Assembly (NCBI GenBank): GCA_031292735.1
Contig: JARLGP010000302.1
Span: 1 to 20,736 of the forward strand
Direction: 5' to 3'
Source of the DNA: Holophaga sp.
Lineage (GTDB): Bacteria; Acidobacteriota; Holophagae; Holophagales; Holophagaceae
Length of the DNA: 20,736 nucleotides
Made by a program: the position numbers and the translations under genes. Below, in pieces: positions 1 through 19,006 of the stretch. The notes beneath the pieces are model-generated. The model did not search any database, was not told the DNA's origin, and saw nothing but the letters and a program-made list of their open reading frames with translations. Every line of letters begins with the position of its first letter. The stretch's first letter is position 1.

Positions 1-966
1 CAGCACCCGGCGCGCCGCCGGGCCGGGGGTGCCCGCCCACAGCACCGAGGCCCAGCGCTCCGGAGCGGCGGCGGCCCATCGGGCGTAGGCCAGGGAACGA
101 TCCGGGCGGTCGCCGCGGTTGGCGATGAGCAGCACCCGGGGCGCGCCGGCCGGAACCATGGCCTCGCCCCTCCGGAACAGCAGGTCGGTGGAAACCGTGT
201 CGTTGGCGGCGAGGGCGTCCACCACGGTGACGGCGCTGGCCGGGATCCGGCGCAGGGCGAAGGCGCCGGGGTCCGGGGTGTGCCCGCGCATGCCGGCCAG
301 GGCGGTGGCCGGGTCGATGCCCAACCGTTGGGCGGCGGCCCATGCGGCGCCCGCATTCTGGGCGTGCCAGGGGCCTGGTCCCGCTTCGGGGGCCAGGATG
401 GCCTGCGCCCCCCGGACGGCCGCGGCCCGGCTCAATGCCTCATGGATGGCGGGATCGGCGGTGAGCACCGTGCCGGCCTCCGGAATGCCTTCGGCGAACA
501 CCGCCAGGGCCTGCTCCGGTGAGCCAAGCTCCTCCTGGTGGTCGGGCCGGGAGTTGGTGACGATCAGCAGGTCCGGGGTCAGGAAGGCGGTGGAGGCGCG
601 CTGGGCGTCCGGGGACACGGCCATGCACTCCACCACCACGGCCTGGGCCTTGCGCCTGGCCGCCAGGAACATGAAGTTCCGCTGCTCGCGCACGTTGGCG
701 GCGCCCCACCGGCGCCAGCGGCGTTCGCTGCCGTCCTCCAGGATGAGCCGGGGTTCGGTGCCAGTGGTCTTGGCCAGGGTGCGCAGCCCGCCGGCCCGCA
801 GCGCCGCGGCCAGCAGGCGGGTGGTCTCGGTCTTGCCGCGGGTGCCGTTCACCTGGACCACGATGGCCAGCGATACCCGGGCCCGCTTGAGGCGCAGGGA
901 TTCCACCAGGAGGAAGCCGAAATAGGCTCCTGCAGCCAGCACGGCGGCCAGTTCCAGCGCGCTCAT
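1..966 (-). CDS. pgsB: PgsB/CapB-type poly-gamma-glutamate synthase ligase (3' end beyond window)
   Basis: The reading frame is open from the ATG at 966 to the left edge, giving 322 codons; PgsB proteins are usually near 400 residues, so the end is missing. Residues 1-22 form a hydrophobic N-terminal segment, as in PgsB. A Mur-ligase-type P-loop, VNGTRGKTETTR, lies at about 39-50. It is followed by VVECMAV (111-117) and TNSRPDHQEELG (137-148), both typical of the PgsB amide ligase that joins glutamate through the gamma-carboxyl using ATP. Family knowledge: PgsB acts at the inner membrane with PgsC and PgsA-type partners; those may lie to the left but cannot be seen. The gene starts 22 bases after the M14 gene stop, and the Shine-Dalgarno is weak (GGAA). 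It is the last visible gene of a cluster of gamma-glutamyl enzymes. A MurE- or FolC-like ligase is the alternative, but the motif wording fits PgsB best. Confidence 0.85.
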   Translation of the reverse strand, partial: MSALELAAVLAAGAYFGFLLVESLRLKRARVSLAIVVQVNGTRGKTETTRLLAAALRAGGLRTLAKTTGTEPRLILEDGSERRWRRWGAANVREQRNFMFLAARRKAQAVVVECMAVSPDAQRASTAFLTPDLLIVTNSRPDHQEELGSPEQALAVFAEGIPEAGTVLTADPAIHEALSRAAAVRGAQAILAPEAGPGPWHAQNAGAAWAAAQRLGIDPATALAGMRGHTPDPGAFALRRIPASAVTVVDALAANDTVSTDLLFRRGEAMVPAGAPRVLLIANRGDRPDRSLAYARWAAAAPERWASVLWAGTPGPAARRVL

Positions 967-988
967 GGGCTTATTCCGGCACGGCGGG

Positions 989-1636
989 TCACCGGCGCAT
1001 CCCCATCTGGCCAAGGGCCACCTCCACCACCAGCAGGTGCAGCCGGATCCGTTCGGCCCTGGGCAGCCGGGCGGGAACCTCCACCGTCAGCGCACGCCGG
1101 CCCCGCTTGCCCAGTTCCCCCACCAGGCTCCCGTCCGGCGCCCCGCCGGTGAAGGCGAACCGGCCGCCCCGGCCTTCCAGGGCCTCCAGCAGGTCCATGG
1201 CGAAGCCTGCGGCGGGGGGCGAAACCACCAGGGTGGCCAGGTCCGGCTCCGGCCAGAGCGGCCCCTCCTCGTGCAGGTCCAGCACCAGGTCCGCGTCCCG
1301 GGCGAGGGCGAACACTTCCGCGGCGCGCCGCGCGTCCGGTCCGGCCGCGCCGCCCGGGAACACCCGGTTCAGGTCCTGGGCTCCGGGCCTGTGCGCGCTG
1401 CGTTCCCCGGCCTGGAGCGCCTCGGGGTTGGCCTCGGCCAGCACCGTCAGCCGGCCCCGCACGGGCCTGCGGCCCTGGGCCAGGACGGCGGCGGCCAGCG
1501 CGCCCGAGGGCTCGTTGCCGTGGATGCCGCCCACCACCAGCACCCGCGGCCCCGGCCGGCCGGAATCCAGCACCATGGCAGGCCCGGCCGGCAGCGGGGC
1601 GCAAACCAGCGCCAGGGATATCAGGAGCGCGTTCAG
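989..1636 (-). CDS. M14-family zinc amidohydrolase (AstE/aspartoacylase-like), secreted, probable CTG start
   Basis: A compact succinylglutamate desuccinylase/aspartoacylase-like protein. Zinc-site motifs are GGIHGNEPSG (H39 and E42 from the proposed start), DLNRVFPG, and LDLHEEGPLW with H122 as third ligand; ALTVEVP (Glu about 186) probably supplies the catalytic acid. The first ATG is at 1576 (195 aa), but it removes all N-terminal context. The open frame upstream encodes NALLISLALVCAPLPAGPA, a convincing signal peptide, and has no ATG, GTG or TTG. A CTG at 1636-1634 overlaps the TGA of the upstream M14 gene as CTGA and is preceded by GGAAAG at 5 bases, so I propose a 215-aa product beginning there. 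Family knowledge: these enzymes cleave amide bonds to acidic amino acids. Action on gamma-glutamyl bonds is inferred from the neighbouring genes. If the CTG is not used, the gene begins at 1576. Confidence 0.78.
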   Translation of the reverse strand: MNALLISLALVCAPLPAGPAMVLDSGRPGPRVLVVGGIHGNEPSGALAAAVLAQGRRPVRGRLTVLAEANPEALQAGERSAHRPGAQDLNRVFPGGAAGPDARRAAEVFALARDADLVLDLHEEGPLWPEPDLATLVVSPPAAGFAMDLLEALEGRGGRFAFTGGAPDGSLVGELGKRGRRALTVEVPARLPRAERIRLHLLVVEVALGQMGMRR

Positions 1637-2754
1637 AAATACTTTCCAAGGCCGTTGGCGACCATCTCATCATAGCTGGGCAGCGGCCCGAGCAGCACCG
1701 GCCGCTGCGGCGAATGGCTGGAATACGCCTTGAAGATCGCCTGCAGCCCGGCCACGTGGCGGGCCACCCGCACCTTCAGCGGCCAGCCGTTCTGGTCGAA
1801 CGGTACGAACAGCCGGCCAAGTTTGGCCGCCCGCACGTAGAGATCGTCCTTGCCGTCCACGATCAGGGCCTCGTCGGACTTGCCCCGGAGCCGGCCCTGG
1901 GAGGGATTGGAATTCTCCATGAGCAGGGCGAACACGTTGGTGTGGTCGCCCAGTTCCCGGTGGCTGAGCCCGTGCAGGTTGACCGGGGAAGGCTCCAGGC
2001 CCATCCGGATGTTGTCGAACTCCAGGTCCAGCACCGCTTCCGAGGCGATGGGCATGGCCCGCTCGTGGGCGACGATGGCGCAGATCACCGGATACTCCGG
2101 CGAGGCCTCGTGCAGATCGATCTCCACGTCGATCTGCTCCGTGCGGATGAGGCTGGCGATGCCGTAGGCCAGCCGCTCGGTGAAGGTGCCGTCGGGCCGG
2201 CCGGGATAGGCGCGGTTCAGGTTGCGGGTTTCGGAGCCGGACAGATGCTGGCCCGAGGCGGCGTGCACGTAGATGTCCGGGTCCGGCCACTGGTCGATGG
2301 GGTTGCTGGCCCGGGAGCCGAACCGGAACTCGCGCCGGCCGTGAGGGGTGTCGATGCCGAAGTGCCGGGGTTCGCCTTCCATGATGTCGGAGTGGCTGAT
2401 GGCCGAGGCGTTGGCGTGGGGGATGACGTAGAGCACGCCGGCTTCGGGCTTGGCGTGTTCGATGAGGAACACCGGCGCCAGGATGCCGGCCGGTTCGTTG
2501 GGGTGGGTGCCGCCGATGATCAGGCCCTTGCCGCCGGGTTTGCCGGAATCGAGGATGTAGACCTCGGTGTCGGCGTGGGTGCCCTTGAGCTTGGGGAACC
2601 ATTCCGACAGCAGGGTGGTCCGGGTGACCCCGGGCCCGGGGTGGAGCGGCTCGACCTTGAACATGGCGCGGTCGCCCGGGACCACCAGGGCCGCCACCAG
2701 GACGGCCGCGGCGAGCAGGGCGAAGGAAACGATGAGGCTGGTTTTCTTGGTCAT
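1633..2754 (-). CDS. Membrane-anchored M14-family zinc carboxypeptidase/aspartoacylase-like protein
   Basis: A 373-aa protein with one N-terminal membrane segment or uncleaved signal (about residues 6-26) and a periplasmic M14 domain. Zinc-site motifs are GGTHPNEPAG (H84, E87), RNLNRAYPG (about 177-185), and EIDLHEASPEYP with H215 as third ligand; E280 in LLMENSNP is a candidate catalytic glutamate. It is longer than typical aspartoacylase and carries extra segments after residue 220. Two in-frame ATGs exist, at 2760 and 2754. The AAGGA site lies 8 bases from the second and only 2 from the first, so 2754 is chosen. It lies between the 48-aa membrane microprotein and a second M14 gene, whose proposed start overlaps this stop. 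Family members hydrolyse N-acyl or peptide bonds next to acidic residues. A role in trimming gamma-glutamyl chains is inferred from context only. Confidence 0.85.
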   Translation of the reverse strand: MTKKTSLIVSFALLAAAVLVAALVVPGDRAMFKVEPLHPGPGVTRTTLLSEWFPKLKGTHADTEVYILDSGKPGGKGLIIGGTHPNEPAGILAPVFLIEHAKPEAGVLYVIPHANASAISHSDIMEGEPRHFGIDTPHGRREFRFGSRASNPIDQWPDPDIYVHAASGQHLSGSETRNLNRAYPGRPDGTFTERLAYGIASLIRTEQIDVEIDLHEASPEYPVICAIVAHERAMPIASEAVLDLEFDNIRMGLEPSPVNLHGLSHRELGDHTNVFALLMENSNPSQGRLRGKSDEALIVDGKDDLYVRAAKLGRLFVPFDQNGWPLKVRVARHVAGLQAIFKAYSSHSPQRPVLLGPLPSYDEMVANGLGKYF

Positions 2755-2766
2755 GGCCATCTTCCT

Positions 2767-2913
2767 TCAGACGATCATGAGGGCCCGCAGGATCAGCGGG
2801 ATCAGGATCAGGGCTGCGTTGATCTTGAGCTTGATGCTCTGCTGCTCGAACAGCTCGGCCAGCACCAGGACGATGATGAGCACGACGATGAGGCGGTAGA
2901 TGAGGGTGATCAT
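2767..2913 (-). CDS. 48-residue single-pass membrane microprotein
   Basis: A short frame of 49 codons from the ATG at 2913 to TGA at 2769-2767. The product starts MITLIYRLIVVLIIVLVLAE and is a strongly hydrophobic helix, followed by a short charged stretch (FEQQSIKLKIN) and a second hydrophobic segment rich in Leu and Ile, so it may be a one- or two-pass membrane protein. The start lies 3 bases after the stop of the permease gene, and a GGGAG site sits 8 bases before it. It ends 12 bases before the next gene's start. No homologue is recognised. By position it could be an accessory subunit of the orphan DctM-type permease, in the place of the small DctQ subunit, although it is far shorter than DctQ. 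It could also be a counterpart of the small PgsE protein of Bacillus poly-gamma-glutamate operons. Both ideas are inference. Confidence 0.72.
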   Translation of the reverse strand: MITLIYRLIVVLIIVLVLAELFEQQSIKLKINAALILIPLILRALMIV

Positions 2914-2916
2914 CGC

Positions 2917-4191
2917 TCAGGCTCCCAGAAACTTGCCGACCGGGTCGGCGAAGACCAGCAGCAGGACGCCGATGCCCACCGCGAACACCGCCGGCCAGAA
3001 ACAGTAGCGGTTGATCCGGCCGTAGCCGGGCAGGCCGATCACCTGGGCGGCCACCACCGGGGTGAGCGCCACCGGCGGCATGTAGCTGCCCATGGCGCCG
3101 ATCAGCGAAAGGGCGGAAAGGACGATGACCGGATTCTTGCTGATCATGGCCAGGGCGAACGGCACGCCCAGCACGCTGGCGCCGCCGAACACCGTGATGC
3201 CGCCGAACAGCGGCAGGATCACCGCCACCCCCGCCAGCATCAGGTAGGAGGGCAGCGACAGGGCGCCGATGACGATGGCCCCGCGCAGCCCGGTCATGGT
3301 CATGATCTCGATGAGCATGCCCACCCCGAACAGCACGCCCACGATCGGCATGATCTCGGCGGCCCCGGCCCGGGCGGCCTTCACCGCGTCCACCTTCTTG
3401 CCGGTGAACAGGCCGAGCAGGGCGCTCAGCAGGAAGGTGAACGGCAGGCGCGGGTCGGGGAACCACTTGGGAAAGGCCGAGGGCCCGATGAGCAGCGCCA
3501 CCACCAGGATCAGCGGCAGGTAGATGGTCCAGCTGCCGATCCGCGGCTGCTGCCGGCTCTGCTCCACCACCTTGGCCAGCCGGGCCCGGTCGATGTGGCG
3601 GTAGCCGATGTACAGGCTGGTGAGGATGGCCAGCGGGACGGTGATGCAGGCCAGCACGAAGTTGAAGCCCACGTACGGCAGGTCGATCCCGCCGCCGATG
3701 ATCATCACCAGGATGTTCACCGGCGGGGCGATCATGCCATAGACCGAGGCGCTGGTGATCACCGCGCCGGCCACGGCCAGGGGCATCCCCATCTCCAGCA
3801 GGATCGGGGAAACCAGCACGCCGGTGCCCAGCACCGAGGCGGTGCAGGAGCCGGTGATGGCCCCGGGGAACATGATCACCAGGGTGAGCGCCACCAGCAG
3901 CAGCAGGGGCGAACGGCCCAGGGCCACGGTGATGGCCCGGGTGAGCTCCGCCAGAAGGCCGTTGGCCTCGATCACCTTCATGAAGATCATCGCCAGGATC
4001 AGCACCAGGCAGGTGTCGAGGAAGCCGAACATGCCCTCCACCAGCTGGGCCAGCGGCAGGCTGCGGCCGGCGGTGAGGGCCAGCAGGATCGAGGTGGCCA
4101 CCAGGCTCAGGGAAACCGGCAGCTTGGCCCAGACCACCATGGCCACGAAGCATACCGCCATGAGCAGCACGTAAAGTAGAGCGGGAGTCAT
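2917..4191 (-). CDS. TRAP-type (DctM-like) large permease, orphan
   Basis: A 424-aa, very hydrophobic inner-membrane protein with about 11-12 membrane segments. GSCTASVLGTG (about 114-124) and SASVYGMIAPPVNI (about 147-160) match the paired re-entrant motifs of DctM and related ion transporters. A related motif in the second half (GGASVLGVPFAL, GSYMPPVALTP) shows the usual inverted repeat. Family knowledge: DctM proteins move carboxylates or amino acids by sodium symport with a DctQ small subunit and a DctP binding protein. Neither partner is next to this gene; instead it is flanked by a secreted DUF6305-like protein and a 48-aa membrane protein. The start at 4191 has GGAGG 4 bases upstream. 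Context suggests it carries a gamma-glutamyl compound or glutamate, but the direction and substrate are not shown. Confidence 0.85.
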   Translation of the reverse strand: MTPALLYVLLMAVCFVAMVVWAKLPVSLSLVATSILLALTAGRSLPLAQLVEGMFGFLDTCLVLILAMIFMKVIEANGLLAELTRAITVALGRSPLLLLVALTLVIMFPGAITGSCTASVLGTGVLVSPILLEMGMPLAVAGAVITSASVYGMIAPPVNILVMIIGGGIDLPYVGFNFVLACITVPLAILTSLYIGYRHIDRARLAKVVEQSRQQPRIGSWTIYLPLILVVALLIGPSAFPKWFPDPRLPFTFLLSALLGLFTGKKVDAVKAARAGAAEIMPIVGVLFGVGMLIEIMTMTGLRGAIVIGALSLPSYLMLAGVAVILPLFGGITVFGGASVLGVPFALAMISKNPVIVLSALSLIGAMGSYMPPVALTPVVAAQVIGLPGYGRINRYCFWPAVFAVGIGVLLLVFADPVGKFLGA

Positions 4192-4248
4192 GCATCCTCC
4201 AAAGCGGCGGCCCTGGGCCGACGCGGCAATGAGATCATCGGGTGCTGC

Positions 4249-4809
4249 CTAGTTGAGGAAGGCCTTGGCCAGGGGCTCGCCGGCCTTGGTGATCCGGTCG
4301 ACGGTGTCCATCGGGGCCTTGCCGCAAAGTTTGTTGAACAGGCCGTCCTTGTTGCCGCCGGCCACCACGATCAGGTAGTCGCACTGGGGCACCGCGGCCC
4401 GGATGAAGCGGTCGGACAGATCGCCCCGGCGGCCCTCGCCGCCCACGTGCAGGCCGATGATCTTCATGCCGCGCTTGCGGGCCATGGCGATGACCGACCG
4501 GGCGCGCTCCAGCTCCGCGTCGGCGGAAATGCCGGCGGCGCCCAGCCCCTTGCTGCTGCCGCCGATGGCCAGCACCAGGGTCTTGGCGCCGCTGGCGGCG
4601 AGATCGGCGGGCTTGGCCTTCACGTCGGCCTTGAACGGGATGTGCGCGCGGTCCATGAGCACCTTCACCATCTCGGTGTCGGCGCTCTGCCCCACCGAAG
4701 TCAGGAAGGCGGGCCTGGCGGCGAGCGGCGCCTTCAGGTTGTAGCCCTGGGCGGCTGCGGTGATGGCGGCCCCCAGGAACAGGGCGGTGGGCAGGAAACG
4801 TAGATTCAT
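4249..4809 (-). CDS. Secreted DUF6305-like protein
   Basis: A 186-aa protein with a clear signal peptide (residues 1 to about 21, ending AITAAAQG). The mature part begins with LAARPAFLTSVGQSADTEMVKVLMDRA and contains an alternating beta/alpha pattern: KTLVLAIGGSSKGLGAAG, MKIIGLHVGGEG and CDYLIVVAGGNKDG. The wording resembles the DUF6305 family as I remember it, whose members are small exported proteins of unknown function found beside TRAP-like permeases; I could not test this by search. The Rossmann-like glycine loops suggest a ligand-binding fold. By position, 57 bases upstream of the orphan DctM-type permease, it may serve as the periplasmic binding component. The start is supported by GAGGA 4 bases before the ATG. 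A hairpin with a T-rich tail lies just upstream and may limit read-through from the gamma-glutamyltransferase gene. Confidence 0.72.
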   Translation of the reverse strand: MNLRFLPTALFLGAAITAAAQGYNLKAPLAARPAFLTSVGQSADTEMVKVLMDRAHIPFKADVKAKPADLAASGAKTLVLAIGGSSKGLGAAGISADAELERARSVIAMARKRGMKIIGLHVGGEGRRGDLSDRFIRAAVPQCDYLIVVAGGNKDGLFNKLCGKAPMDTVDRITKAGEPLAKAFLN

Positions 4810-4819
4810 GGTGTCCTCG

Positions 4820-4861
4820 GAAAGAAAGAAGAAGACCCCGGAGCGGATCCGCCCCGGGGTC
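4820..4861 (-). terminator. Intrinsic-terminator-like hairpin between ggt and the DUF6305 gene
   Basis: The arms GACCCCGG (4834-4841) and CCGGGGTC (4854-4861) pair perfectly over 8 bases. The enclosed GCGGATCCGC can extend the stem past one A-C mismatch. Read on the minus strand, the hairpin is followed by CTTCTTCTTTCTTTC, a T-rich tract lying just before the Shine-Dalgarno of the DUF6305 gene. This could be a partial terminator or attenuator, or a processed mRNA end that sets different dosage for the two halves of the cluster. Confidence 0.55.
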
Positions 4862-4870
4862 CGGGTCCGG

Positions 4871-6559
4871 CTAGAAACCGGCCGCCTGGCCGTCGCGGCG
4901 GGGATCCGCCCCGCCGGTCAAGGTCATGGTCTTGTAGTCGTAAATGACCGCCTGCACGCCGCCGAAGTAGAGGTCCCAGTCCTCGCGGGTGGTGAGGGCG
5001 TGGCCCAGGGGCGCAAGCTTGCTGAAGGTGTTCAGGGAGACCCGGCCCTCCACGTTGAGGTTGCCGGAGGCCATCTGGAAGTAGCGGGGAGCGTCGATGG
5101 CTTCCTGCAGCGGCATGCCGAAGTCGATGATGTTGGAGATCACCTGGGCCACGGTGGGGAAGATGCGGGTGGCTCCGGGGGAACCGACGGTGAGGAACGA
5201 GCGGCCCTGGGGGTCAAGCACCAGGGTGGGGCTCATGCTGGACAGGGGCCGCTTGCCGGGTTCGACGGAATTGGCGGTTCCCGGCTTGGGCGTGAAGTCG
5301 TCCATATGGTCGTTCATGATGAAGCCGCAACCGGGCACCACCACGCCGGAACCGAAGAAGTCGTTGATGGACTTGGTGACGGCCACCATGTTGCCGTCCT
5401 TGTCCATCACCGAGAAGCTGGTGGTGGAGCCGGACTCGTAGCGGGACGGATCGCCGGCGGTGGCCGAGGCCATGGACTTGTCCATGGCGATCCTGGTGGA
5501 GAGTTCCTTGGCATAGGGCTTGGAGGTGAGCCCGGCCAGCGGCACCTTCACGAAGGCGGTGTCGGCCATGTACTTGGAACGGTCCGCGAACACCATCTTC
5601 AGGGACTCGGACCAGAGGTGGGCGGTGGCGGGGGTGCCGTAGCCGCTGGCCTGCATGTCGAAGTTCTCCAGGATGTTCAGCAGCTCCACCAGGTGGGTGC
5701 CGCCCGAAGACGCCGGGGGCACCGACATGATGGTGTAGCCGCGGTAGCTGCCCACCACCGGCTTGCGCACTTCGATCTTGTAGCTGGCCAGGTCCTGGGC
5801 GGTGAGGATGCCGCCCTGCTTCCGCACCTCGGCGGCGATCCGCTTGGCGATGTCGCCCTTGTAGATGGCGTCGGCGCCCTGGTCCGCGACCAGCTTGAGG
5901 GTCTTGGCCAGGTCGGGGTTGTGGATGGTTTCGCCGGCCTCATAGGGCAGGCCGTCCTTGAGGTAGATGGCGGCGCAGGCCGGGAACTGCTTGATGGTGT
6001 CGAAGTGGTCCTTGATGAAGCTGGACAAGTTGTAGGTGACGGTGAAGCCCTTGTTGGCCCAGTTGATGGCCGGCTGGAGCATCTGGGCCCGGGAGATCTT
6101 GCCGGACCCGTAGTGCTCGAAGGCGTAGAGCAGGCCGGCCACTTCGCCCGGGATGCCGCTGGCCAGGCCGCCGACGGTGGACGCGTTGTTCACCACGTTG
6201 CCCTTGGCGTCCAGTTTGAACATGTCGGGCCTGGCCGCCTTCGGGGCGATCTCGCGGAAGTCGATGACCACGGCTTCCTTCATGTTGGCCAGCCGGACGA
6301 TCATGAACCCGCCGCCGCCGATGCCGGTGGCGTTGGGTTCCAGCACGCCCAGGGCGAAGCCGGTGGCGATGGCCGCGTCCACGGCGTTGCCGCCCGCCTT
6401 GAGGATGTCCACTCCCACCTGGGAGGCTTCCGGCTTGGCGGCGGCCACCACCCCGTGGTTGCCGGTGGCCGATCGGCCGTATAAGTTGGCTGGCTGGTTC
6501 GCCAGCAGCATGGGTGTGGCGCAAGCCAGCAGCCCCACTAGGGTCAACGTGCGTCTCAC
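4871..6559 (-). CDS. ggt: Gamma-glutamyltransferase/hydrolase proenzyme, exported
   Basis: A 562-aa protein of normal length for bacterial GGT, with a signal peptide (about residues 1-20). Family blocks are GGNAVDAAIATGFALGVLEP (56-75), GIGGGGFMIV (79-88) and VPPASSGG (280-287). The autoprocessing site STTSFSVMDKDGN puts the new N-terminal nucleophile at about T379. It is followed by FGSGVVVPGCGFIMNDHMDDF, the PGKRPLSSMSPT block and GSPGATRIFPT. Family knowledge: GGT removes the gamma-glutamyl group from peptides or glutathione in the periplasm and transfers it to water or amino acids; related exo-type enzymes trim poly-gamma-glutamate. The GTG start at 6559 overlaps the permease stop as GTGA, with GGAGG 7 bases upstream, so translation is probably coupled. 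All key residues appear intact. It lies between a permease and a poly-gamma-glutamate-related module. Confidence 0.95.
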   Translation of the reverse strand: MRRTLTLVGLLACATPMLLANQPANLYGRSATGNHGVVAAAKPEASQVGVDILKAGGNAVDAAIATGFALGVLEPNATGIGGGGFMIVRLANMKEAVVIDFREIAPKAARPDMFKLDAKGNVVNNASTVGGLASGIPGEVAGLLYAFEHYGSGKISRAQMLQPAINWANKGFTVTYNLSSFIKDHFDTIKQFPACAAIYLKDGLPYEAGETIHNPDLAKTLKLVADQGADAIYKGDIAKRIAAEVRKQGGILTAQDLASYKIEVRKPVVGSYRGYTIMSVPPASSGGTHLVELLNILENFDMQASGYGTPATAHLWSESLKMVFADRSKYMADTAFVKVPLAGLTSKPYAKELSTRIAMDKSMASATAGDPSRYESGSTTSFSVMDKDGNMVAVTKSINDFFGSGVVVPGCGFIMNDHMDDFTPKPGTANSVEPGKRPLSSMSPTLVLDPQGRSFLTVGSPGATRIFPTVAQVISNIIDFGMPLQEAIDAPRYFQMASGNLNVEGRVSLNTFSKLAPLGHALTTREDWDLYFGGVQAVIYDYKTMTLTGGADPRRDGQAAGF

Positions 6560-7887
6560 AGGTGCACCTCCGGGAAATGGGTGGCGGCCGGAACGGCGCC
6601 GGAACCCTGGTTACGGTTGAGGAAAAGCATCAGGAAGAACAGCGGCACCCCCACGGCCAGGGCGCCCAGGCCCCACAGCAGCTGGGCGTGGGTGGCCTTG
6701 GTCAGCAGCCATAGGCAGGCGAGGGCGGCTGTCAGCGGGATCACCGGTCCGAACGGGATGGTGAAGCCCCGGGGCAGGCCGTTGCGCCGGCGCAGCACCA
6801 GCACCGCCAGGCAGGTGGGCAGGTACTGGGCGAAGCGGGACACCATGCTGATGGCCGCCAGCTGTACGAAGGAGCCGGAAAGGGCGACCGGCACCGCCAC
6901 CAGGACGGTGGCCAGGATGGAGACCCAGGGCACCCCGAACCGGTTCAGCTCGGCGAACCTGGCGGGCACGATGCGGTCGGTGGCCAAGGCCACCCCGGTG
7001 CGCGGCGCCATGAACGAAGCGGCCACGTTGATGCCGCCGATGGACACCAGGGCGCCCAGGGCCACCATCCACTTGCCGCAGGAGCCCATGAACACCGATG
7101 CCGCGTCGGCCACCGGGGCGCTGCTCCTGGCCAGGGCCGGGCCCAGGGTTCCCACCGCGATGGCCTGCACCGCGAAGTAGATGGTTCCGCACAGGCCCAT
7201 CACCACCATCAGCGCCATGGGCAGGTTCCGCCTCGGGTCGTCCATGTCCTCGGCGGCCACCGCCATGCCTTCGAAGCCGGTGAAGGCGTAGAAGATCACC
7301 AGTCCGGTGGTGCCGAAGGTGTCCCGGGTGAGCCCCCTGGGGAACATCGGCTGGAACCGGCTGCCGGCGATGAACCAGACCCCGACCAGCACGAACACCA
7401 CCAGCGGCAGCAGCTTGCCCACGGTGACCAGGTTGTTCACCAGCCTCATGGGCCGCACCCCCAGCAGGTTCAGGGAGCCCAGGCCCAGCAGGATGGCCAG
7501 GACGATCAGCGTGCGGGACGGCTCGTGCAGCGCCGGCGGCCACAGGCTGCTGAGGGCGGTGACGAAGCCCGCGGCCAAGGCGGCCCAGGCGATGATCCGG
7601 ACGGCCCAGCTGAGGATGCCCACCTCGAACCCGACGAAGGCGCCGAACGCTTCCCGGGCATAGACGTAGGCCGCGCCGTTGCGGGTGAAACGGCCGGCGC
7701 ACTCGGCGAAGCACAGGGCGATGGTCATCACCACCGCCGCCACGAACAGGTAGACGAACACACTGCCAGGGCCGATCAGGTCCATGGCCTTGCCCGGCAG
7801 CAGGAAGATGCCTGAGCCGATCACCCCGTTGATCCCGAACAGCACGATGCTCCAGAATCCCAGCTTGCCGTGGGCCTGGGGGTTCAT
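6556..7887 (-). CDS. APC-superfamily amino-acid permease
   Basis: A 443-aa inner-membrane protein with about 12 membrane helices. The first helix carries GVIGSGIFLLPG (21-32), the hallmark substrate-binding break of APC transporters. FAECAGRFTRNGAAYVYAREAFG follows in helix 3 and FYAFTGFEGMAV in helix 6, both typical of the family. The start at 7887 is chosen because its ATG overlaps the TGA of the upstream hydrolase gene as ATGA; a start at 7983 would lie deep inside that gene. The stop in turn overlaps the GTG of ggt. The tight PuuD-permease-GGT order suggests import of an amino acid, amine or gamma-glutamyl compound handled by these enzymes, comparable to PuuP beside PuuD in E. coli. The substrate is inferred, not shown. 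Confidence 0.9.
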   Translation of the reverse strand: MNPQAHGKLGFWSIVLFGINGVIGSGIFLLPGKAMDLIGPGSVFVYLFVAAVVMTIALCFAECAGRFTRNGAAYVYAREAFGAFVGFEVGILSWAVRIIAWAALAAGFVTALSSLWPPALHEPSRTLIVLAILLGLGSLNLLGVRPMRLVNNLVTVGKLLPLVVFVLVGVWFIAGSRFQPMFPRGLTRDTFGTTGLVIFYAFTGFEGMAVAAEDMDDPRRNLPMALMVVMGLCGTIYFAVQAIAVGTLGPALARSSAPVADAASVFMGSCGKWMVALGALVSIGGINVAASFMAPRTGVALATDRIVPARFAELNRFGVPWVSILATVLVAVPVALSGSFVQLAAISMVSRFAQYLPTCLAVLVLRRRNGLPRGFTIPFGPVIPLTAALACLWLLTKATHAQLLWGLGALAVGVPLFFLMLFLNRNQGSGAVPAATHFPEVHL

Positions 7888-8642
7888 GTGGCTTCTCGCT
7901 CCCTGGGCGCGCAGGCCGCCACCAGCTTCTGGAACAGGCGAAACATTTCCGGGTGCTTCCGGAACATCCCTTCGGGGTGCCACTGGACCCCGAGCAGGAA
8001 GCCTTCATCCGTGGTTTCCAAACCCTCGATGCCCTCGATGACCCCGTCCCGGGTGCGGGCGCTCACCCGGAAGCCGTGGGCCAGGTCCTTCACCGCCTGG
8101 TGGTGGAAGCTGTTGGCGCCGATGCTGGGGCCATCGAAGATGGCGCGCAGGCGGGTGCCTTCGACCAGGTCCACGGTATGGCTCGCCGCGTGCCGCCAGC
8201 CGGTCTGCCCATGGCGCAGCATGCCGGGCAGGCCGTCCAGGTCCTGGTGCAGGGTGCCGCCGAAGGCCACGTTCAGCACCTGCATGCCGCGGCAGATGCC
8301 CAGCACGGGCAGGCCGGCCGCCCGGGCCATGCGGACCAGGGGAAGCTGGTGCCGGTCCATGTCCGGGAAGGCGTCGCCCAGGCCCGGCGCCGGCTCTTCG
8401 CCGTAGGTCAGGGGATCCAGGTCCTCCCCGCCGGCCAGCAGCAGACCGTCCAGGATGCCCAGCTGGGCCTGCAGGTCCTCTTCGGCGGACACCATGGGCA
8501 GCACCACCGGCAGGGCGCCGGCCAGGGCCAGGGCGTCCAGGTAGTCCTGGTTCACGCAGGCCCGTTCGTTCCCAGGAAAGGATCCATGGCTGTCCACCAG
8601 CACATTGGCCGGCACTCCGATCAGGGGTTTGACGATCCCCAT
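7884..8642 (-). CDS. puuD: PuuD-like gamma-glutamyl hydrolase (class I amidotransferase fold)
   Basis: A 252-aa cytoplasmic enzyme, close to the 254 residues of E. coli PuuD (gamma-glutamyl-GABA hydrolase). LLLAGGEDLDPLTYGE (67-82) is typical of the peptidase C26 family, GICRGMQ holds the nucleophile C117, and VQWHPEG gives H222 and E224 of the triad. It hydrolyses a gamma-glutamyl amide to free glutamate; the exact substrate is unknown here. The start at 8642 has AAGGGAG just upstream and lies about 26 bases after the predicted transcription start of the sigma-54 promoter at 8678-8693. The frame stays open to 8816, but a longer start would place the promoter inside the gene, so it is rejected. 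It is the first gene of the long minus-strand cluster and overlaps the permease gene by 4 bases. Confidence 0.9.
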   Translation of the reverse strand: MGIVKPLIGVPANVLVDSHGSFPGNERACVNQDYLDALALAGALPVVLPMVSAEEDLQAQLGILDGLLLAGGEDLDPLTYGEEPAPGLGDAFPDMDRHQLPLVRMARAAGLPVLGICRGMQVLNVAFGGTLHQDLDGLPGMLRHGQTGWRHAASHTVDLVEGTRLRAIFDGPSIGANSFHHQAVKDLAHGFRVSARTRDGVIEGIEGLETTDEGFLLGVQWHPEGMFRKHPEMFRLFQKLVAACAPREREAT

Positions 8643-8677
8643 GGGTCTCCCTTCAAATTCTTGGTTGAGCAAGTCCA

Positions 8678-8693
8678 AGCGAAAACCGTGCCG
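8678..8693 (-). promoter_or_regulatory. Sigma-54 (-24/-12) promoter of the gamma-glutamyl cluster
   Basis: The minus strand reads CGGCACGGTTTTCGCT, compared with the consensus TGGCACG-N4-TTGCW. The invariant GG and GC doublets are present with the required spacing. The two differences are C for T in the first position and TC for TT before the GC. Transcription would start near 8668 and leave a short leader containing the AAGGGAG site of the puuD-like gene. A sigma-54-dependent activator is encoded immediately upstream on the same strand, which fits this promoter type. Confidence 0.75.
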
Positions 8694-8870: not shown

Positions 8871-10892
8871 TTATGCTTGCCTGTTACTCGACCCGTTCAA
8901 GAACGAGGCGCCCCGGGGGGTGAGCTCGCTGCCCCGGCGCCCCACCGTGGCGCGCACCAGTCCCGCCTGGGTGAGCAGGCGCAGGCAGCCGCGCACTTGC
9001 CCTTCGGTGAGGGCCTGACCTTGCCGGGCCAGGGCGTCCAGCAGGTGCTTGCGGCCGGCGCCGTGCTCCTGGGCGGCCAGGGCCGCCAGCATGGTTCGGG
9101 CCCGGTCCAGCCCGCAGCGGGCCAGCAGAGCCTCCTCCCGCTCGAAGGAGGGGTGCTCGTCCAGCAGGTAGTGGGGCAGGGACTCCAGGGTCACCACCTG
9201 CTCGGTCATGAACGAGAGGTAGCTGGCCACGTTGTTCAACTCGCGGATGTTGCCCGGCCAAGGGTAGCGCATGAGCGCCTCCCGGGCCTCCGGGGTGAAG
9301 CTCAGCCCCATGCGCTTTTGTCCGGCCATGAAGTGCTCCAGCAGCAGGAAGATGTCCTCGGGGCGCTGGTGCAGGGGCGGCACCACCAGGGGCAGGGTGT
9401 TCAGCCGGTAGTAGAGGTCCTCCCGGAACCGCCCGCGGCGGATCCATTCGCGCAGGTCCTGGTTGGTGGCGGCGATCACCCGGATATTGACGTTCACCAC
9501 CTTCTGCGAGCCCACCCGCACCACCTGCCGTTCCTGCAGCACCCGCAGAAGCTTGGCCTGGAGCACCATGGGCATGTCGGCGATCTCGTCCAGGAACACG
9601 GTGCCGTGGTTGGCCTGCTCGAACAGCCCGGTCTTGCCCTCCTTCAGCGCGCCGGTGAACGCGCCGCCCTCGTAGCCGAACAGTTCGCTTTCCAGCAGGT
9701 TCTCCGGCACCGCGGCGCAGTTCACCGCCACGAACGCCTGCCGGCTGCGCGCCGAGGCCTGGTGGATGGACTGGGCCAGCAGTTCCTTGCCGGTGCCGCT
9801 CGCTCCGGTGATGAGCACGGTGAAGTCCGAGGCGGCCATGCGCCGGGCCAGATCCACGCACTGGATCATGCGCGGGGCCCGGGTGAGCACGTCGGAAAAC
9901 CGGTAGCGGGCGGTCTGCCCTTTCTCCCGCAGCTTGCGGCTGAGGTTCTGCTCCAGCTGGCGGATGTAGGTGACCTCCTGGAAGTTGAAGAAGCTTCCGG
10001 CGGGCTCTCCCAGGTGCTGGATGGCCTGCCGGGTGATCACCAGCGAGCGGCCCTTGTGCTCGACGATCCATTCCTGGCCGCTCTTGCGGGTGAGCACCTC
10101 CTGGATTTCAGGGCCCAGCGCTTTCAGGGGGGCTCCGGCCAGGTCGCCCTGCAGGTCCAGCATGCCGGCCAGGGCGCGGTTGTGCAGGGTGATCCGGCCT
10201 TCGGGGTCCACCAGCAGGATGCCGTCGTGGGACAGGTTGATCACCGTGTCCAGCTGGGTGTTCTTGAGGTAGAGCTCCTTGTACTGGTGGTTGACGCCGG
10301 TGTCCAGGGTGACGATGGATTCCGAGTAGCGCAGCAGCCGGCGGTCCACCACCGGGTCGGCGATGTCCAGGCGGTTGATGATCTCGATGAAGGTGGAGAT
10401 GTCGATGCAGCGGTGGCCCACGTCGATCACCGTGGGGATGCCGACGGGCACGCGGTCCTTTTCCCCGGGGGTGATGGCGATGCGGAGTTCCGCGCAGTCC
10501 ATGCCCTCCTGGTACGGGATGAACCGCAGGTGGTTGATCTTCAGCTGCTGGAGCAGGGCCACGGTCTCCAGAGTGGTTACCGGGTGGTCGTTCACCACCA
10601 GCACCCGGGCGCCGGAGGGGATGGCGAAGATCCGGTACACATCCCGCTCCCGGAGGGTGCGCCGCACCACCAGGATGTGCCGGGGGTCCGCCACGTGGTC
10701 CGTGAGCAGGGGAATCTTGTCGCTGACCATGACCAGCACCAGGTCGGCTTCCACCGGGTCGGAGGGCCCCATGGCGTTGAAGGTGTAGTGGCGGACGGCC
10801 ACGTGCCCGCCCAGCACCTCCTCCAGGTTGCTGCGCAGGGCTTCCGCCAGGTGGCTCCTGCTGTTGTCGGTCACCACCGCGAGGCGCTTCAC
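8871..10892 (-). CDS. Sigma-54-dependent transcriptional activator with PAS-like and AAA+ domains
   Basis: A 673-aa enhancer-binding protein. Residues 1 to about 180 form an alpha/beta sensory domain of a type I cannot name; it is not a receiver, since no phosphoacceptor pattern is evident. A PAS-like domain (about 212-310) is followed by a short coiled linker. The AAA+ domain (about 332-570) has Walker A GASGTGKE (363-370), the sigma-54-contacting GAFTGA loop (410-415) and Walker B TVFLDEI (431-437). The C-terminus lacks an evident Fis-type helix-turn-helix and instead has a winged-helix-like stretch (about 615-662: [19 protein letters not shown], then basic residues). The GTG start at 10892 overlaps the stop of the mscS-like gene (GTGA) with AGGA 6 bases upstream. 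It most likely activates the sigma-54 promoter at 8678-8693. The signal it senses is unknown. Confidence 0.92.
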
Positions 10893-12637
10893 GGCCGTTC
10901 CTGCCCGCGCAGCAGTTCCACCAGGGCCTGGTTCAGCACCCGCCGGGTCTCGTGCCGTTCGTAGGCCCGGGTGATGTAGCGGATCTGGATCTCCACGCCG
11001 GCGGCGGTGGGCACCACGTTGATGCCGGGCAGCGCGGAAAAGCCTTTGGTCCGCTTGGCGGATTGCCGCCATTCGGCCTCGGCCAGCTTGGCGTTGGCCG
11101 CGGTCTCCTGCTCCACCCGCCGGCGGATGGCGTCCACCAGCGGGTAGGGGTCCTGGCCGGGGGGCACCGTCACCTGCAGTTCGTCCCACATCCACTGGCC
11201 GGAGGAGGAGAAGTTGAAGAAGTGCCCTTCCATGGCGAAGCTGTTCACGAACGAGACGATCCGCCCGGTGGGGTGGCCGCAGTCGCTCCAGTTGCCGGTC
11301 TCCATCAGCATGGTGCGCAGCAGCCCGATCTCCACCACCTCGCCGCCCACGCCGTCGATCTCCACCCAGTCGCCCACGTGGATGCCGTTGCGGCCCACCA
11401 GCACGAACCAGCCGAAGAACGCCACGATGAAGTCCTTCAGGGCGACGGTGAGGCCGGCGCCGGCCAGGCCGAACAGGGTGGTCATCTGGCTGGGCAGCCC
11501 GAACAGCACGCACAGGATCGCCAGGGTGCCGGTGGCCATGGCGGCGTATTTCGCCATCTTCAGCAGGCGGCCCACCCGTTTCTGCCCCTCGGCCATGCGG
11601 CGGAACCCGCGCTCGAACAGCCGGTCCGCCACGAACACCAGGGCCAGCACCAGCAGCACCCCCATCAGCCACTGGATCAGCACGTGCAGCGCGGCCCGCT
11701 TCTGGCCCCGGGCCAGGGCGCCCCACTGGGCGTAGGCCTCGTCCAGGTCCTGCTGGTCCTGGATGCGGCGCCCCATGTCGGACAGCATCCGCTGGTCCCC
11801 CATGTAGTGCTGGAGGGAGGTGAGGGTGCCGCCGGCGGCGGCCTGGGCGGACTGGGCGTCCTGGGCCTGGGCCAGCCCGGCCGCGGCCTGCTTGGTGCGT
11901 TCCCGGTCCGCCCGTTCCTGCTCCACCCGTTGGGCCCGGATCTGCCGCCGCTGGGCCACCAGCTGGGCCTTGGCGCGGGCCTCCTGGCCGGCCTGGTCCA
12001 GGCGTTGCACCTTGGTCCGGGCGGCGGACCAGGCCTGGTACTTGCCCAGCAGGCTGCCGTTCTGGAAAAGGGCCGGGGCGGCGGGGAGCGCCGGCGGGGC
12101 GGCGTCGGCCGCCGCATGGGCGGCCTGCAGCCGCCGGATCCGGGCCTGGGGATCGCCGCCCACCCGCTGCAGGTCCTCGGTGGCCTGGTCCAGTTCATCC
12201 TGGTCCAGTTCCAGCTGGGCCTTGGCCAGGTCCAGCCGGGTATCCTGGGTGGCCGAGGCCTGCCGGCCGAGTTCGGCGATGCGCAGCTGGTCGGCCTGCA
12301 CCGCCGCCTCCTCCTGCAGCTTGTGGGCCAGCCGTTCCCGGGTCTGGGGGGTGGGCGGCGGCGGGTTCTCCGCCGCCTGGCGCAAGGCGTCGGCGAAGGC
12401 CAGGTCCACCTCGTGGTTGGCCACGCGCTGGGCCTGGTGCACCAGCAGTTTCTCCTCCGGGGTGACGGCCAGGGCCTCCAGGCTCCGGGCGGTCAGCTGC
12501 GGCCGTTCGTCCACCAGCCATTCGTGGCGCGCGGGCGCCTGCGCCTGGGTCCGGTCCCGGGTCAGGGCCAGTCCGGTGATGGCGGCCGCGGCGGCGAGGC
12601 CCAATGCGATGGCGGGTGCCCAGTGGGATGATTTCAT
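10889..12637 (-). CDS. Large MscS-family mechanosensitive channel with periplasmic coiled-coil domain
   Basis: A 582-aa inner-membrane protein. A signal-like segment (about 7-25) is followed by about 280 residues rich in Ala, Gln, Glu and Arg that should form long coiled coils in the periplasm. Three membrane segments follow at about 315-340, 362-382 and 385-415. The last contains [22 protein letters not shown], the glycine/alanine-rich pore helix of MscS, and is followed by the beta domain [21 protein letters not shown]. Family knowledge: such channels open under membrane tension to release solutes. The stop overlaps the start of the sigma-54 activator gene by 4 bases, so the two proteins should be made together. 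The channel may release osmolytes or take part in sensing for the regulator; this link is inferred from overlap alone. Confidence 0.9.
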
Positions 12638-12679
12638 GCCTTAGGACAGCACGAAAGACCTGCGCCTTCAAATGCTAAG

Positions 12680-12695
12680 GTTCCTGGACAGGAAC
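12680..12695. promoter_or_regulatory. 16-base inverted repeat in the divergent mscS / DUF6600 promoter region
   Basis: GTTCCTG-GA-CAGGAAC has two perfect 7-base arms. It lies in the 82-base gap between two divergently read genes, where an operator could control both. No regulator can be named, and no clear -35/-10 pair was found on either side. Confidence 0.4.
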
Positions 12696-12719
12696 CACCG
12701 TTGGCCGGAGAATCCGGGC

Positions 12720-14983: not shown

Positions 14984-15895
14984 TCAGCGGGCCTGCACCA
15001 CCGACTGCCCCACCTTCAAAGTGGCCCGGTCCCCGGTCACCTTCAGGATGGAGGATTCCTCCCCCACATCGGTCACCTGCAGCTGGGTGAGCACCCGCCG
15101 CTCGCCCTGGATCAGCTTGCCGGTCACCGGGTGCACCACGTCCGCCCCCTGTTCCACCAACTGGAAACGGGCGCCCTGTTCCAGCCGCTGCCTGCGCCCC
15201 AGGTCCACCAGGGCCTCCCGCTCGGAGATCACCTTGATCACATAGCCGGTCAAGGGGAACCGGGCCGCGGTCTCCTTTTCAAGGCTGGCGGTCAGGTCGT
15301 CCAGCAGAAGCTCGTAGGAATGGTAGGCCTTGGGATCCTGGGAGGAGGCGTGCAGCAGGAAGGCTTCGCGGATCGACCCGTCCTCGGTGTTCACCAGGTT
15401 CAGCCGGACCTCCAGGTGGCCGGGGTATGCATCCTCGCGGGTCTTGCCGCCGAAGAAATGGGTGGTCACTTCGGCGGTGTGGCCGAGGCTCCCGGTGTAG
15501 GACCCCACCAGCACGAAGGTGGCGCCCATCTGCCGGCCCAGCCTGGCCGCGGTGGCGTCGTCCACCAGGCCGCTCTGCTCGAACTTGCCTTCCCTCAGCA
15601 CCGCGTCCAGCTGGGCCCGCTCCACCAGCTGGAACCTTCCGGTCTTGAGAAAGGCCATGGTCACCCGGGACATGATCTGCGGCTGGATCTGGCCCATGCG
15701 GGTGGGCGCGGCCGGCCCCTGCGCGGTCTGACCCTGGCCGGGAAACGCGCGGTAGGCTGCCGGGTTGGGCACCTGGAAGCCGCCCCGCAGCGGCAGCACG
15801 GCCAGGGTGGCCGGGCCGCCCTCGGCCGCCGCCAGGTTTGCGGCGGCCAGGAGGGAGAGCGCGAGGGCATGGAAACAGACCTTCAGGTGGCTCAT
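14984..15895 (-). CDS. CsgG-family exported protein with FlgT_C-like C-terminal domain
   Basis: A 303-aa protein with a signal peptide (about 1-24, SLLAAANLAAAEG). The N-terminal half fits the CsgG fold: TLAVLPLRGGF, then FLKTGRFQLVERAQLDAVLREGKF and QSGLVDDATAARLGRQMGATFVLVGSY. The last 80 or so residues (GYVIKVISEREALVDLG, RFQLVEQG, VVHPVTGKL, then VTDVGEESSILKV) resemble the C-terminal domain of FlgT-like proteins. No lipobox Cys is evident, unlike curli CsgG. The start at 15895 has GGAG 7 bases upstream and a good promoter at 15923-15951; an ATG at 15946 would include the promoter. No curli or flagellar genes are adjacent, so the role is unknown beyond an envelope location. Confidence 0.85.
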   Translation of the reverse strand: MSHLKVCFHALALSLLAAANLAAAEGGPATLAVLPLRGGFQVPNPAAYRAFPGQGQTAQGPAAPTRMGQIQPQIMSRVTMAFLKTGRFQLVERAQLDAVLREGKFEQSGLVDDATAARLGRQMGATFVLVGSYTGSLGHTAEVTTHFFGGKTREDAYPGHLEVRLNLVNTEDGSIREAFLLHASSQDPKAYHSYELLLDDLTASLEKETAARFPLTGYVIKVISEREALVDLGRRQRLEQGARFQLVEQGADVVHPVTGKLIQGERRVLTQLQVTDVGEESSILKVTGDRATLKVGQSVVQAR

Positions 15896-15922
15896 GCCGG
15901 TTCTCCATGGGATTGCCTTTGA

Positions 15923-15951
15923 ATTATCAAGGCCGGGGTCATCCACCTCAA
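15923..15951 (-). promoter_or_regulatory. Sigma-70-type promoter of the CsgG-family gene
   Basis: On the minus strand TTGAGG (15951-15946) and GATAAT (15928-15923) are separated by 17 bases, close to the bacterial housekeeping consensus. The predicted start near 15916 leaves a leader of about 20 bases containing the GGAG site. It supports the start codon at 15895. Confidence 0.6.
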
Positions 15952-18830: not shown

Positions 18831-19006
18831 GATCACCTTTCGGGTTGAAAATGCGACCCAGTATCACCCGATCTGGAATCGTGTCTCGAACAGAATCGTT
18901 CCCTCCCCAAGGCCATGAACGGGGCCCCCCTGCATTCATGGACTGACGCACCGGCCGCCCGGTTCCGCCTGGCCGGACAGCCCCACGGGCTGCAGGAAAA
19001 AGACGC

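Follow-up and report, generated by a model that had tools for sequence, protein, structure and literature searches.

What pathway, if any, joins genes that make and genes that break gamma-glutamyl bonds when they lie side by side in one bacterial gene run? The question is raised by the left end of a 20,736-base stretch of Holophaga sp. contig JARLGP010000302.1 (70% G+C; this whole stretch is called the window), where a run of minus-strand genes ends at the left edge. In the initial annotation, this run (1-8642) was described as eight whole genes and one edge-cut gene with tight spacing, and this gene list is correct. Read toward base 1, the order is sigma-54 activator, PuuD-like hydrolase, APC permease, gamma-glutamyltransferase (GGT), DUF6305 protein, DctM-like permease, 48-residue protein, M14a, M14b, and PgsB-like ligase. 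Searches of Pfam and NCBIfam also confirmed the proposed domain identities (Mur_ligase_M/PgsB, AstE_AspA_cat twice, DctM, DUF6305, GGT, AA_permease_2, and Peptidase_C26). The tight spacing was borne out by 4-base overlaps in the pairs PuuD-like/APC, APC/GGT, and M14a/M14b (CTGA), and the remaining gaps measure 61 bases (GGT-DUF6305), 57 (DUF6305-DctM), 3 (DctM-small protein), 6 (small protein-M14a), and 22 (M14b-pgsB). The answer favored here, with moderate confidence, is that the window would contain the upstream portion of a cassette for poly-gamma-glutamate (PGA), where a synthase module is accompanied by an accessory module and the product would be trimmed and retaken. The components of this reading differ in strength. 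The identity of these genes as members of a pgs-linked cassette is close to certain; the product is probably PGA or something close to it; and the proposal that the accessory module cleaves the product and brings it back into the cell, DUF6305 being the binding or sensing part, stands at about even chances, since it was reached by elimination and from family knowledge. The features on which the comparison turns are the following.

1..966, minus: pgsB-like gamma-glutamyl ligase, cut by the edge, 322 residues (TIGR04012, 2.4e-62; Mur_ligase_M)
989..1636, minus: M14b, secreted AstE/AspA-type zinc peptidase or deacylase, probable CTG start (PF24827, 65.5 bits)
1633..2760, minus: M14a, membrane-anchored AstE/AspA-type zinc peptidase or deacylase (PF24827, 28.9 bits, cut-off 25)
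2767..2913, minus: 48-residue protein with two hydrophobic helices, unnamed family (own family model)
2917..4191, minus: DctM-like permease, ion transporter superfamily (PF06808, 35.5 bits)
4249..4809, minus: DUF6305 protein, signal peptide (by eye) and alpha/beta Rossmann-like domain (PF19823, 156.1 bits)
4871..6559, minus: gamma-glutamyltransferase (N-terminal nucleophile hydrolase), lid-less, predicted nucleophile Thr379 (PF01019, TIGR00066)

A cassette around pgsB, pgsC, and TIGR04332

The PgsB-like protein, cut at 322 residues, reaches 210.9 of the 222.7 bits required by TIGR04012; no other ligase model gives it more than 24 bits, and Mur_ligase_M is matched above its Pfam cut-off. The protein starts with a hydrophobic helix and carries VNGTRGK (P-loop) at 39, ECMAV at 113, and TNSRPDH at 137, motifs that we take to be marks of PgsB. 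Its three nearest relatives are 84-89% identical and 375-386 residues long, and two of them carry the JGI name PgsB/CapB. The assignment as a PgsB-type ligase is supported by the TIGR04012 score, just short of the cut-off in this truncated copy, and by the Mur_ligase_M domain, the motifs, and the named relatives. A full-length relative in a spirochaete (L001) reaches 224 bits, above the TIGR04012 cut-off, and is followed by PgsC (TIGR04011, 99.7 bits; cut-off 96.45) and then by a protein of family TIGR04332 (287.7 bits; cut-off 100), for which the name PgsW serves here as shorthand. The identical order, with higher scores, is present in Clostridium tetanomorphum (L015), whose PgsB scores 371 bits. 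When the models were tested on the next genes of relatives, PgsC was above cut-off in 3/3 cases and TIGR04332 in 4/4; and among 40 uncut PgsB genes, PgsC lies within 800 bases in 39 and PgsW within 1,200 bases in all 40. By extrapolation from these relatives, pgsC and pgsW would lie just past base 1 of the window.

The recurrence of the whole gene set was examined in the best 80 loci of 376 M14a relatives, obtained by scanning species genomes with an M14a alignment, a sample biased to close kin. Nine family models were run over all reading frames of these loci; each was seeded with 4-7 of the loci plus the window copy, if any (M14a with alignment A1), so that seed loci match by construction. 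Frequently with changes in gene order, the cassette GGT-DUF6305-DctM-48-residue protein-M14-(M14)-pgsB-pgsC-pgsW has counterparts in Spirochaetes, Clostridia, Fusobacteria, Acidobacteriota, Comamonadaceae, and others. This is the gene-order comparison proposed in the initial annotation: the block DUF6305-DctM-small protein-M14-(M14)-pgsB is found again in other genomes, continued by pgsC and TIGR04332, and the ligase did not turn out to be another Mur-type enzyme whose neighbors occur apart from pgsB and pgsC. The DctM-like gene is directly upstream of M14a in 72 of the 73 loci with enough upstream sequence. Among the 39 loci flanked by 8 kb or more on each side, GGT is present in 37, DUF6305 in 37, M14b in 21, PgsB in 27, PgsC in 26, and PgsW in 27; the string GGT-DUF6305-DctM-small protein-M14a is contiguous in 21 and PgsB-PgsC-PgsW in 26. 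In Fusobacterium gastrosuis (L035), the cassette is present without M14b. The 12 well-flanked loci that have no nearby PgsW all possess TIGR04332 elsewhere in the genome (control genomes, 0/14), and PgsB is its neighbor in 11 of these 12 slices.

The proteins also vary together across hosts. In 31 loci, protein-distance correlations were 0.83-0.88 among PgsB, PgsC, and PgsW, 0.81 for DctM-M14a, 0.76 for DUF6305-M14a, 0.72 for GGT-DUF6305, and 0.71 for GGT-M14a, with 0.55-0.69 between modules; none of 2,000 permutations reached any of these values, the permutations ignoring host kinship. Because of this pattern, the cassette is described here as a synthesis module and a looser accessory module.

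Searches across taxonomic groups, whose names were inferred from their center genomes, delimited the association (the centers G017, G026, G013, and G020, plus G027, had been retrieved through M14a and form part of the samples). In the fusobacterial phylum (80 genomes), PgsW is found in 14 genomes, DUF6305 in 15 above cut-off (17 at E 0.001), and both in 14; in the fifteenth DUF6305 genome (G300), the cassette is on a contig that ends inside PgsC (L123). In the Holophagaceae order, to which locus L007 belongs (77 genomes), PgsW is found in 3, DUF6305 in 4, and both in 3, and the cassette is therefore patchy in this order, like a mobile set. The rule that DUF6305 implies pgsW, true in these two groups, is broken by the clostridial class (291 genomes), where DUF6305 is present in 13 genomes and TIGR04332 in one above cut-off plus one fragment. 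The two clostridial genomes with PgsW (G020 and G322) have cassettes. The other 12 clostridial loci (11 genomes; L111-L122) show the order peptide-binding protein-DUF6305-sensor kinase-response regulator, with the binding protein in 12/12 and the kinase in 10/12, the remaining two stopping at a contig edge. These DUF6305 proteins form a separate clade scoring 86-121 bits, whereas 67 of the 70 DUF6305 matches in the 80 loci reach at least 130. Since the exceptions belong to another clade in another context, the claim was narrowed to cassette-type DUF6305, and DUF6305 alone is no marker of the cassette. The converse rule, that pgsW implies DUF6305, was also rejected: in a spirochaete sample (120 genomes), PgsW is present in 7 and DUF6305 in 2 above cut-off, one of the latter strong and the other at 25.3 bits (cut-off 25) in a genome without pgsW. 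Six of the seven spirochaete TIGR04332 genomes gave no M14a and no DctM match; in these six (L124-L129), PgsB, PgsC, and PgsW are adjacent and the slices contain no accessory gene. The synthase genes can therefore stand alone. On the other hand, the accessory set in its cassette form always accompanies pgs genes in the genomes examined, with the exception of one decayed copy (G101).

Proteins of the two modules

Within the synthase module, the fold model of PgsW (predicted local distance difference test, pLDDT, 90.6) consists of an alpha/beta domain between N- and C-terminal helices, and hydropathy places a helix at both ends in 26 of 40 copies. The net charge is positive outside the N-terminal helix in 27/35 and outside the C-terminal helix in 26/31; because these flanking ends are mostly positive, the data suggest that the PgsW domain is extracytoplasmic. 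No pgsA was seen in the window; its adjacency to the relatives' pgs genes was not searched by model. CapA/PGA_cap (PF09587) was sought anywhere in 25 carrier genomes, self-chosen from the 80 loci, and matched above cut-off in 17 and at E 0.001 in 18, with no match in 7; it is also matched in 7 of 14 control genomes. The seven carriers without a match include all three fusobacterial genomes tested (L025, L035, and L038), and Fusobacterium nucleatum is described as a PGA producer in a passage of PMC3815933. PgsA is therefore no fixed part of the system, and PgsW is inferred to be the natural candidate for its place.

The accessory module begins with GGT, which scores 547.9 bits with PF01019 and 544 bits with TIGR00066. 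Its residue 379 is Thr, and the small chains of solved enzymes align from this residue. Between the two motifs that flank the lid loop, the window enzyme has 14 residues, the same number as 4y23, vs. 24 in 2e0w (the enzymes of Bacillus licheniformis and Escherichia coli, respectively), and for this reason the lid is considered absent. The motif pair could be located in 42 of the 67 GGTs from the loci, and all 42 are of the short kind. In a comparison of large chains, the window GGT scored 300.7 bits with 2dbu, 269.2 with 3a75, and 154.9 with CapD (3g9k). According to passages of a review (PMC8062742), lid-less Bacillus GGTs are believed to have room for bulky PGA, the absence of the lid has been tied to PGA hydrolysis in these enzymes, and insertion of a lid into a B. 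subtilis GGT gave an enzyme that took glutamine as substrate instead of PGA. The same passages class the GGTs of Gram-negative bacteria as lid-positive (PMC8062742), unlike the lid-less enzyme of the window, whose host is probably Gram-negative.

In both zinc enzymes, the AstE/AspA zinc ligands are retained, as is the NR motif of this group. M14a carries HxxE, NLNR, and DLHE, with ligands H86, E89, and H217 invariant in a 25-sequence alignment, and has 2qj8, 3cdx, and 6twl as solved relatives; M14b carries GGIHGNEP, DLNRVFPG, and DLHEE. The loose pattern HxxE...xH is present in 100/100 M14a and 46/46 M14b matches of the loci. In the M14b frame, no ATG, GTG, or TTG follows the upstream stop early enough to cover the signal peptide, and the start is likely to be the CTG at 1636, within the CTGA overlap (1633-1636), which would give a signal peptide. 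Gene callers restricted to ATG, GTG, and TTG would place the start at 1576 and drop this peptide. Signal or anchor starts were recognized by eye in GGT, DUF6305, M14a, and M14b, and a crude hydropathy scan flagged the M14 proteins only; on account of these N-termini, the four proteins are probably extracytoplasmic.

The permease had been described as an orphan DctM protein. This description holds in that PF06808 is matched (cut-off 23.8) and no DctP or DctQ match lies beside the gene, its neighbors being DUF6305 and the 48-residue protein; the model TIGR00786, on the other hand, is far below cut-off (28 of 268.45 bits). Since DctQ and DctP partners are not encoded beside it, the protein is not filed as a tripartite ATP-independent periplasmic (TRAP) transporter. 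Among its 1,696 relatives, 119 others listed share 61-88% identity. The 48-residue protein, without any Pfam or NCBIfam match, consists of two hydrophobic helices, a charged loop, and an L-R-x-L-M-I-K-like end (71-sequence alignment). A match to its family immediately precedes M14a in 70 of 78 loci and is present anywhere in 76 of 80; of the eight loci without a strict match, six have one in a frame overlapping M14a, and L007 and L043 have none. In seven loci (L046, L049, L064, L069, L076, L079, and L080), a tandem second DctM-like/M14a-like set and a divergent GGT precede the cassette.

DUF6305, far above the PF19823 cut-off of 25 bits, was modeled with AlphaFold2 as an alpha/beta domain (pLDDT 93.4). 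A membrane sensor kinase family accompanies the cassette in 29 of the 80 loci, a response regulator in 28, and both in 27 (18 of the 39 well-flanked loci). Kinases of the same family, with about 30% identity over the full length, are those found beside 10 of the 12 stand-alone clostridial DUF6305 genes. Another example is provided by the Comamonadaceae loci L005 (816-2861, minus) and L008 (472-2466, minus), in which such a kinase comes right after a second DUF6305 gene. The cassettes of L005 and L008 have two GGT and two M14a genes each. From these associations, we infer that DUF6305 may bind an external ligand and inform the kinase. No member of this kinase family is present among the window genes examined, which include a sigma-54 activator instead.

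Proposed mechanism and competing readings

In the proposed mechanism, PgsB, PgsC, and PgsW would form a membrane complex for the synthesis and secretion of PGA. Outside the cytoplasm, the polymer would be cut or trimmed by the lid-less GGT and by two zinc enzymes, M14a and M14b (the latter not always present), and the DctM-like permease, with the 48-residue protein as partner, would take up glutamate or short gamma-oligomers again. DUF6305 would be the periplasmic ligand-binding or sensing part of this accessory set, and in many relatives a sensor kinase and a response regulator dedicated to it would read it out. In the genome of the window, a PuuD-like hydrolase and an APC permease have been added in front, possibly under sigma-54, and would allow gamma-glutamyl compounds to be split and imported.

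Several observations weigh against this proposal. The window copy of PgsB is truncated and is 12 bits below the TIGR04012 cut-off, and pgsC and pgsW are outside the window, their presence being only an extrapolation. The whole uninterrupted string from GGT to PgsW is found in just 10 of the 39 well-flanked loci; within the sequence available, DUF6305 is missing in L051 and L070, and GGT in L032 and L070. Some correlations inside the accessory set are no better than those between modules (DUF6305-DctM 0.64, GGT-DctM 0.53). Eleven of the 13 clostridial DUF6305 genomes have no TIGR04332, and G101, of the Holophagaceae order, has DUF6305 without TIGR04332 in what is, as assembled, a decayed cassette (L107, 1-3016), where GGT has a large internal gap, DctM stops after about 60 residues, and DUF6305 and a PuuD-like gene look whole. 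The nucleophile pattern fits 35 of the 67 GGTs and the lid is unscorable in 25. Comparison of the DUF6305 and PgsW models with solved structures turned up no informative relative, and the M14 enzymes could be N-acyl-amino-acid deacylases.

The best surviving alternative is that the accessory genes finish or anchor the polymer at the cell surface, by means of a CapD-like GGT and M14 trimming, while DctM supplies glutamate or counter-ions and nothing is recycled. CapD, a member of the GGT family, is reported in passages of PMC8062742 to attach PGA to peptidoglycan; the structures matched by the window GGT include CapD chains (3g9k), and the extracytoplasmic look of GGT, DUF6305, and both M14 proteins would suit such a role. 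Nevertheless, the window GGT is nearer to ordinary GGTs (2dbu and 3a75) than to CapD, the conservation of a permease and its small partner speaks for transport, and the window additionally encodes a cytosolic gamma-glutamyl hydrolase; anchoring without recycling is regarded as unlikely. Rather improbable is a product other than homopolymeric PGA, namely some further gamma-glutamyl or gamma-linked compound from a ligase that is related to PgsB but differs in specificity. The PgsB proteins of the window and of L001 do lie at the margin of TIGR04012, on either side of its cut-off, and the relatives of the M14 enzymes include an N-acetyl-2,4-diaminobutyrate deacylase, but the cassette member L015 scores well beyond that cut-off, PgsC is kept beside PgsB in 39/40, and the genus Fusobacterium includes a PGA producer reported in a passage of PMC3815933. 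Export of the polymer or its monomer by DctM and the 48-residue protein in place of PgsA, close to the export option of the initial annotation (export or uptake through a DctM-type permease), is very improbable: DctM is nearly always in the cassette and CapA/PGA_cap goes unmatched in 7/25 cassette genomes (an eighth having only a sub-cut-off match), but 6/6 further spirochaete genomes have pgsB, pgsC, and pgsW adjacent without any DctM match, and PgsW, with its two end helices and a charge pattern that places the domain outside, is the better stand-in for PgsA. Because the synthase genes occur alone in those six genomes, the accessory genes are assigned to processing, sensing, and recycling and not to export, and a role of DctM in breakdown and uptake fits better.

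Local genes, known systems, and significance

The window further contains the following features.

4833..4862, minus: terminator- or attenuator-like hairpin in the GGT/DUF6305 gap (13 pairs, T-rich tail)
6556..7887, minus: APC-superfamily amino-acid permease, local addition (PF13520)
7884..8642, minus: Peptidase_C26/PuuD-like gamma-glutamyl hydrolase without signal peptide (by eye), local addition (PF07722, 224 bits)
8678..8693, minus: candidate sigma-54 -24/-12 promoter CGGCACGGTTTTCGCT (2 mismatches)
8871..10889, minus: sigma-54-dependent activator, PrdR-like, start approximate at about 10889 (PF00158; NF041552, 353 of 795 bits)

The APC permease and the PuuD-like hydrolase, which had been counted in one cluster with the other genes, are outside the recurring cassette, and so is the sigma-54 regulator. 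None of the reading frames in the 80 loci has APC as its best match, and PuuD comes out best for a single short stretch (L034), the remnant L107 with its PuuD-like gene being a further case. The sigma-54 activator was rejected as a conserved member: its four matches in the 80 loci begin at the AAA+ domain and omit the N-terminal half. The name of the hydrolase stands in part: the fold family is correct (Peptidase_C26, with the motifs GICRG and WHPE), and the PuuD model NF008471 is not reached (114.2 of 266 bits), so that only 'PuuD-like' is retained. In L105 (8953-9783) and L106 (7559-8476), both minus and from relatives in the Holophagaceae order, a secreted GxCxGA glutamine-amidotransferase-like protein (motif by eye) precedes GGT, in the place of the APC and PuuD-like genes of the window.

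Control of the whole cluster by sigma-54 had also been proposed and is not supported, given the intervening hairpin and promoter-like sites that are not above chance. The sequence CGGCACGGTTTTCGCT at 8693-8678 is about 35 bases before the ATG of the puuD-like gene, and the window contains 2 such -24/-12-like sites vs. a mean of 3.9 in shuffled sequences; since they are no commoner than chance, position is what speaks for CGGCACGGTTTTCGCT, and next to the activator gene it is plausible as a sigma-54 promoter. The hairpin at 4862-4833 is G+C-rich (10 of its 13 pairs are G-C) and folds at -30.4 kcal/mol (z -1.9; 9/200 shuffles fold equally well). As a conserved terminator it was rejected, one being found in 3 of 37 related gene pairs by an own scan in which 8 of the 37 gaps, of 25 bases or less, went unscanned. 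Lying between GGT and DUF6305, it may end or attenuate the transcript before DUF6305, and a single transcript is therefore not assured; sigma-54 could plausibly control no more than the first three genes (PuuD-like, APC, and GGT).

Directly before the activator, on the same strand, is a gene for an MscS-type channel (MS_channel_2nd; 10889-12637, minus). MscS-type channels of Corynebacterium export glutamate, and a functional link to the cassette is possible. No link is evident for the DUF6600 protein (12672-14747, plus), the CsgG/LpoB-like protein (14984-15946, minus), the dienelactone hydrolase (19037-19795, plus), or the acyl-CoA dehydrogenase (19925-20734, plus). An open reading frame of 462 residues at 17448-18836 (minus; G+C at third codon positions 0.92) has no Pfam match and faces long antisense open reading frames, a product of high G+C.

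Compared with the PgsBCA(E)/CapBCA(E) systems of Bacillus, the cassette shares the PgsB ligase and, in the window's relatives, PgsC directly after it, and differs in the TIGR04332 gene after pgsC and in the permease, DUF6305, 48-residue protein, and M14 enzymes that often precede pgsB. Pairs of PgsB and PgsC had been reported earlier from 250 bacterial species in 58 genera, as stated in a section of PMC4497714. The NCBIfam set TIGR04011-TIGR04012-TIGR04332 ('poly-gamma-glutamate system protein') equals the second half of the cassette in relatives and names only pgsB, pgsC, and TIGR04332; the accessory DUF6305, DctM-like, 48-residue, and M14a genes bore no such label in the searches of this analysis. 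A TRAP transporter (DctP-DctQ-DctM) is resembled in the DctM-like large permease with adjacent small membrane and periplasmic proteins, but the partner in the cassette has two helices and DctQ four (PMC5812351, in part). The likeness to lid-less Bacillus GGTs and CapD lies in the GGT family, the missing lid loop, and the genetic link to PGA genes, whereas proximity to ordinary GGTs sets the window enzyme apart from CapD. The known PGA hydrolase PghP is, according to a passage of PMC4497714, a zinc metallopeptidase related to carboxypeptidase A; the cassette enzymes are likewise zinc peptidases, but belong to AstE_AspA_cat (PF24827), and no PghP-family match was listed.

In the literature searched, which did not extend to subscription papers, no description was found of the cassette, the two-helix 48-residue family, or the link between DUF6305 and a two-component system, nor any paper naming DUF6305. 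PGA in F. nucleatum was reportedly described by Candela et al. in 2009, a study known here through citing papers. Part of the cassette may be drawn in an operon figure of PMC3815933 that includes F. nucleatum; in PMC2650404, PGA appears in the reference list only. The PgsB, PgsC, and TIGR04332 families and the PgsB-PgsC pairs are thus already known; the accessory set, the family of the 48-residue protein, and the association of DUF6305 with a kinase, all absent from the literature searched, would be new.

The literature on PGA found here deals mostly with PgsBCA of Bacillus. The cassette offers a concrete gene set for PGA production outside this genus, in fusobacteria, treponemes, clostridia, and acidobacteria, and predicts which proteins would replace PgsA and which would process and re-import the polymer. 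It also ties to one pathway DUF6305 and TIGR04332, two families without known function, and an unnamed 48-residue membrane protein. A more far-reaching and quite tentative possibility is that of a self-contained system across phyla that makes, senses, and recycles PGA, in which a pgsA-independent PgsB/PgsC/PgsW synthase would be combined with a minimal TRAP-like importer, the two-helix protein taking the place of DctQ and DUF6305 serving both the importer and the two-component system. If this is true, the sharing of DUF6305 would allow the cell to meter its own extracellular glutamate polymer.

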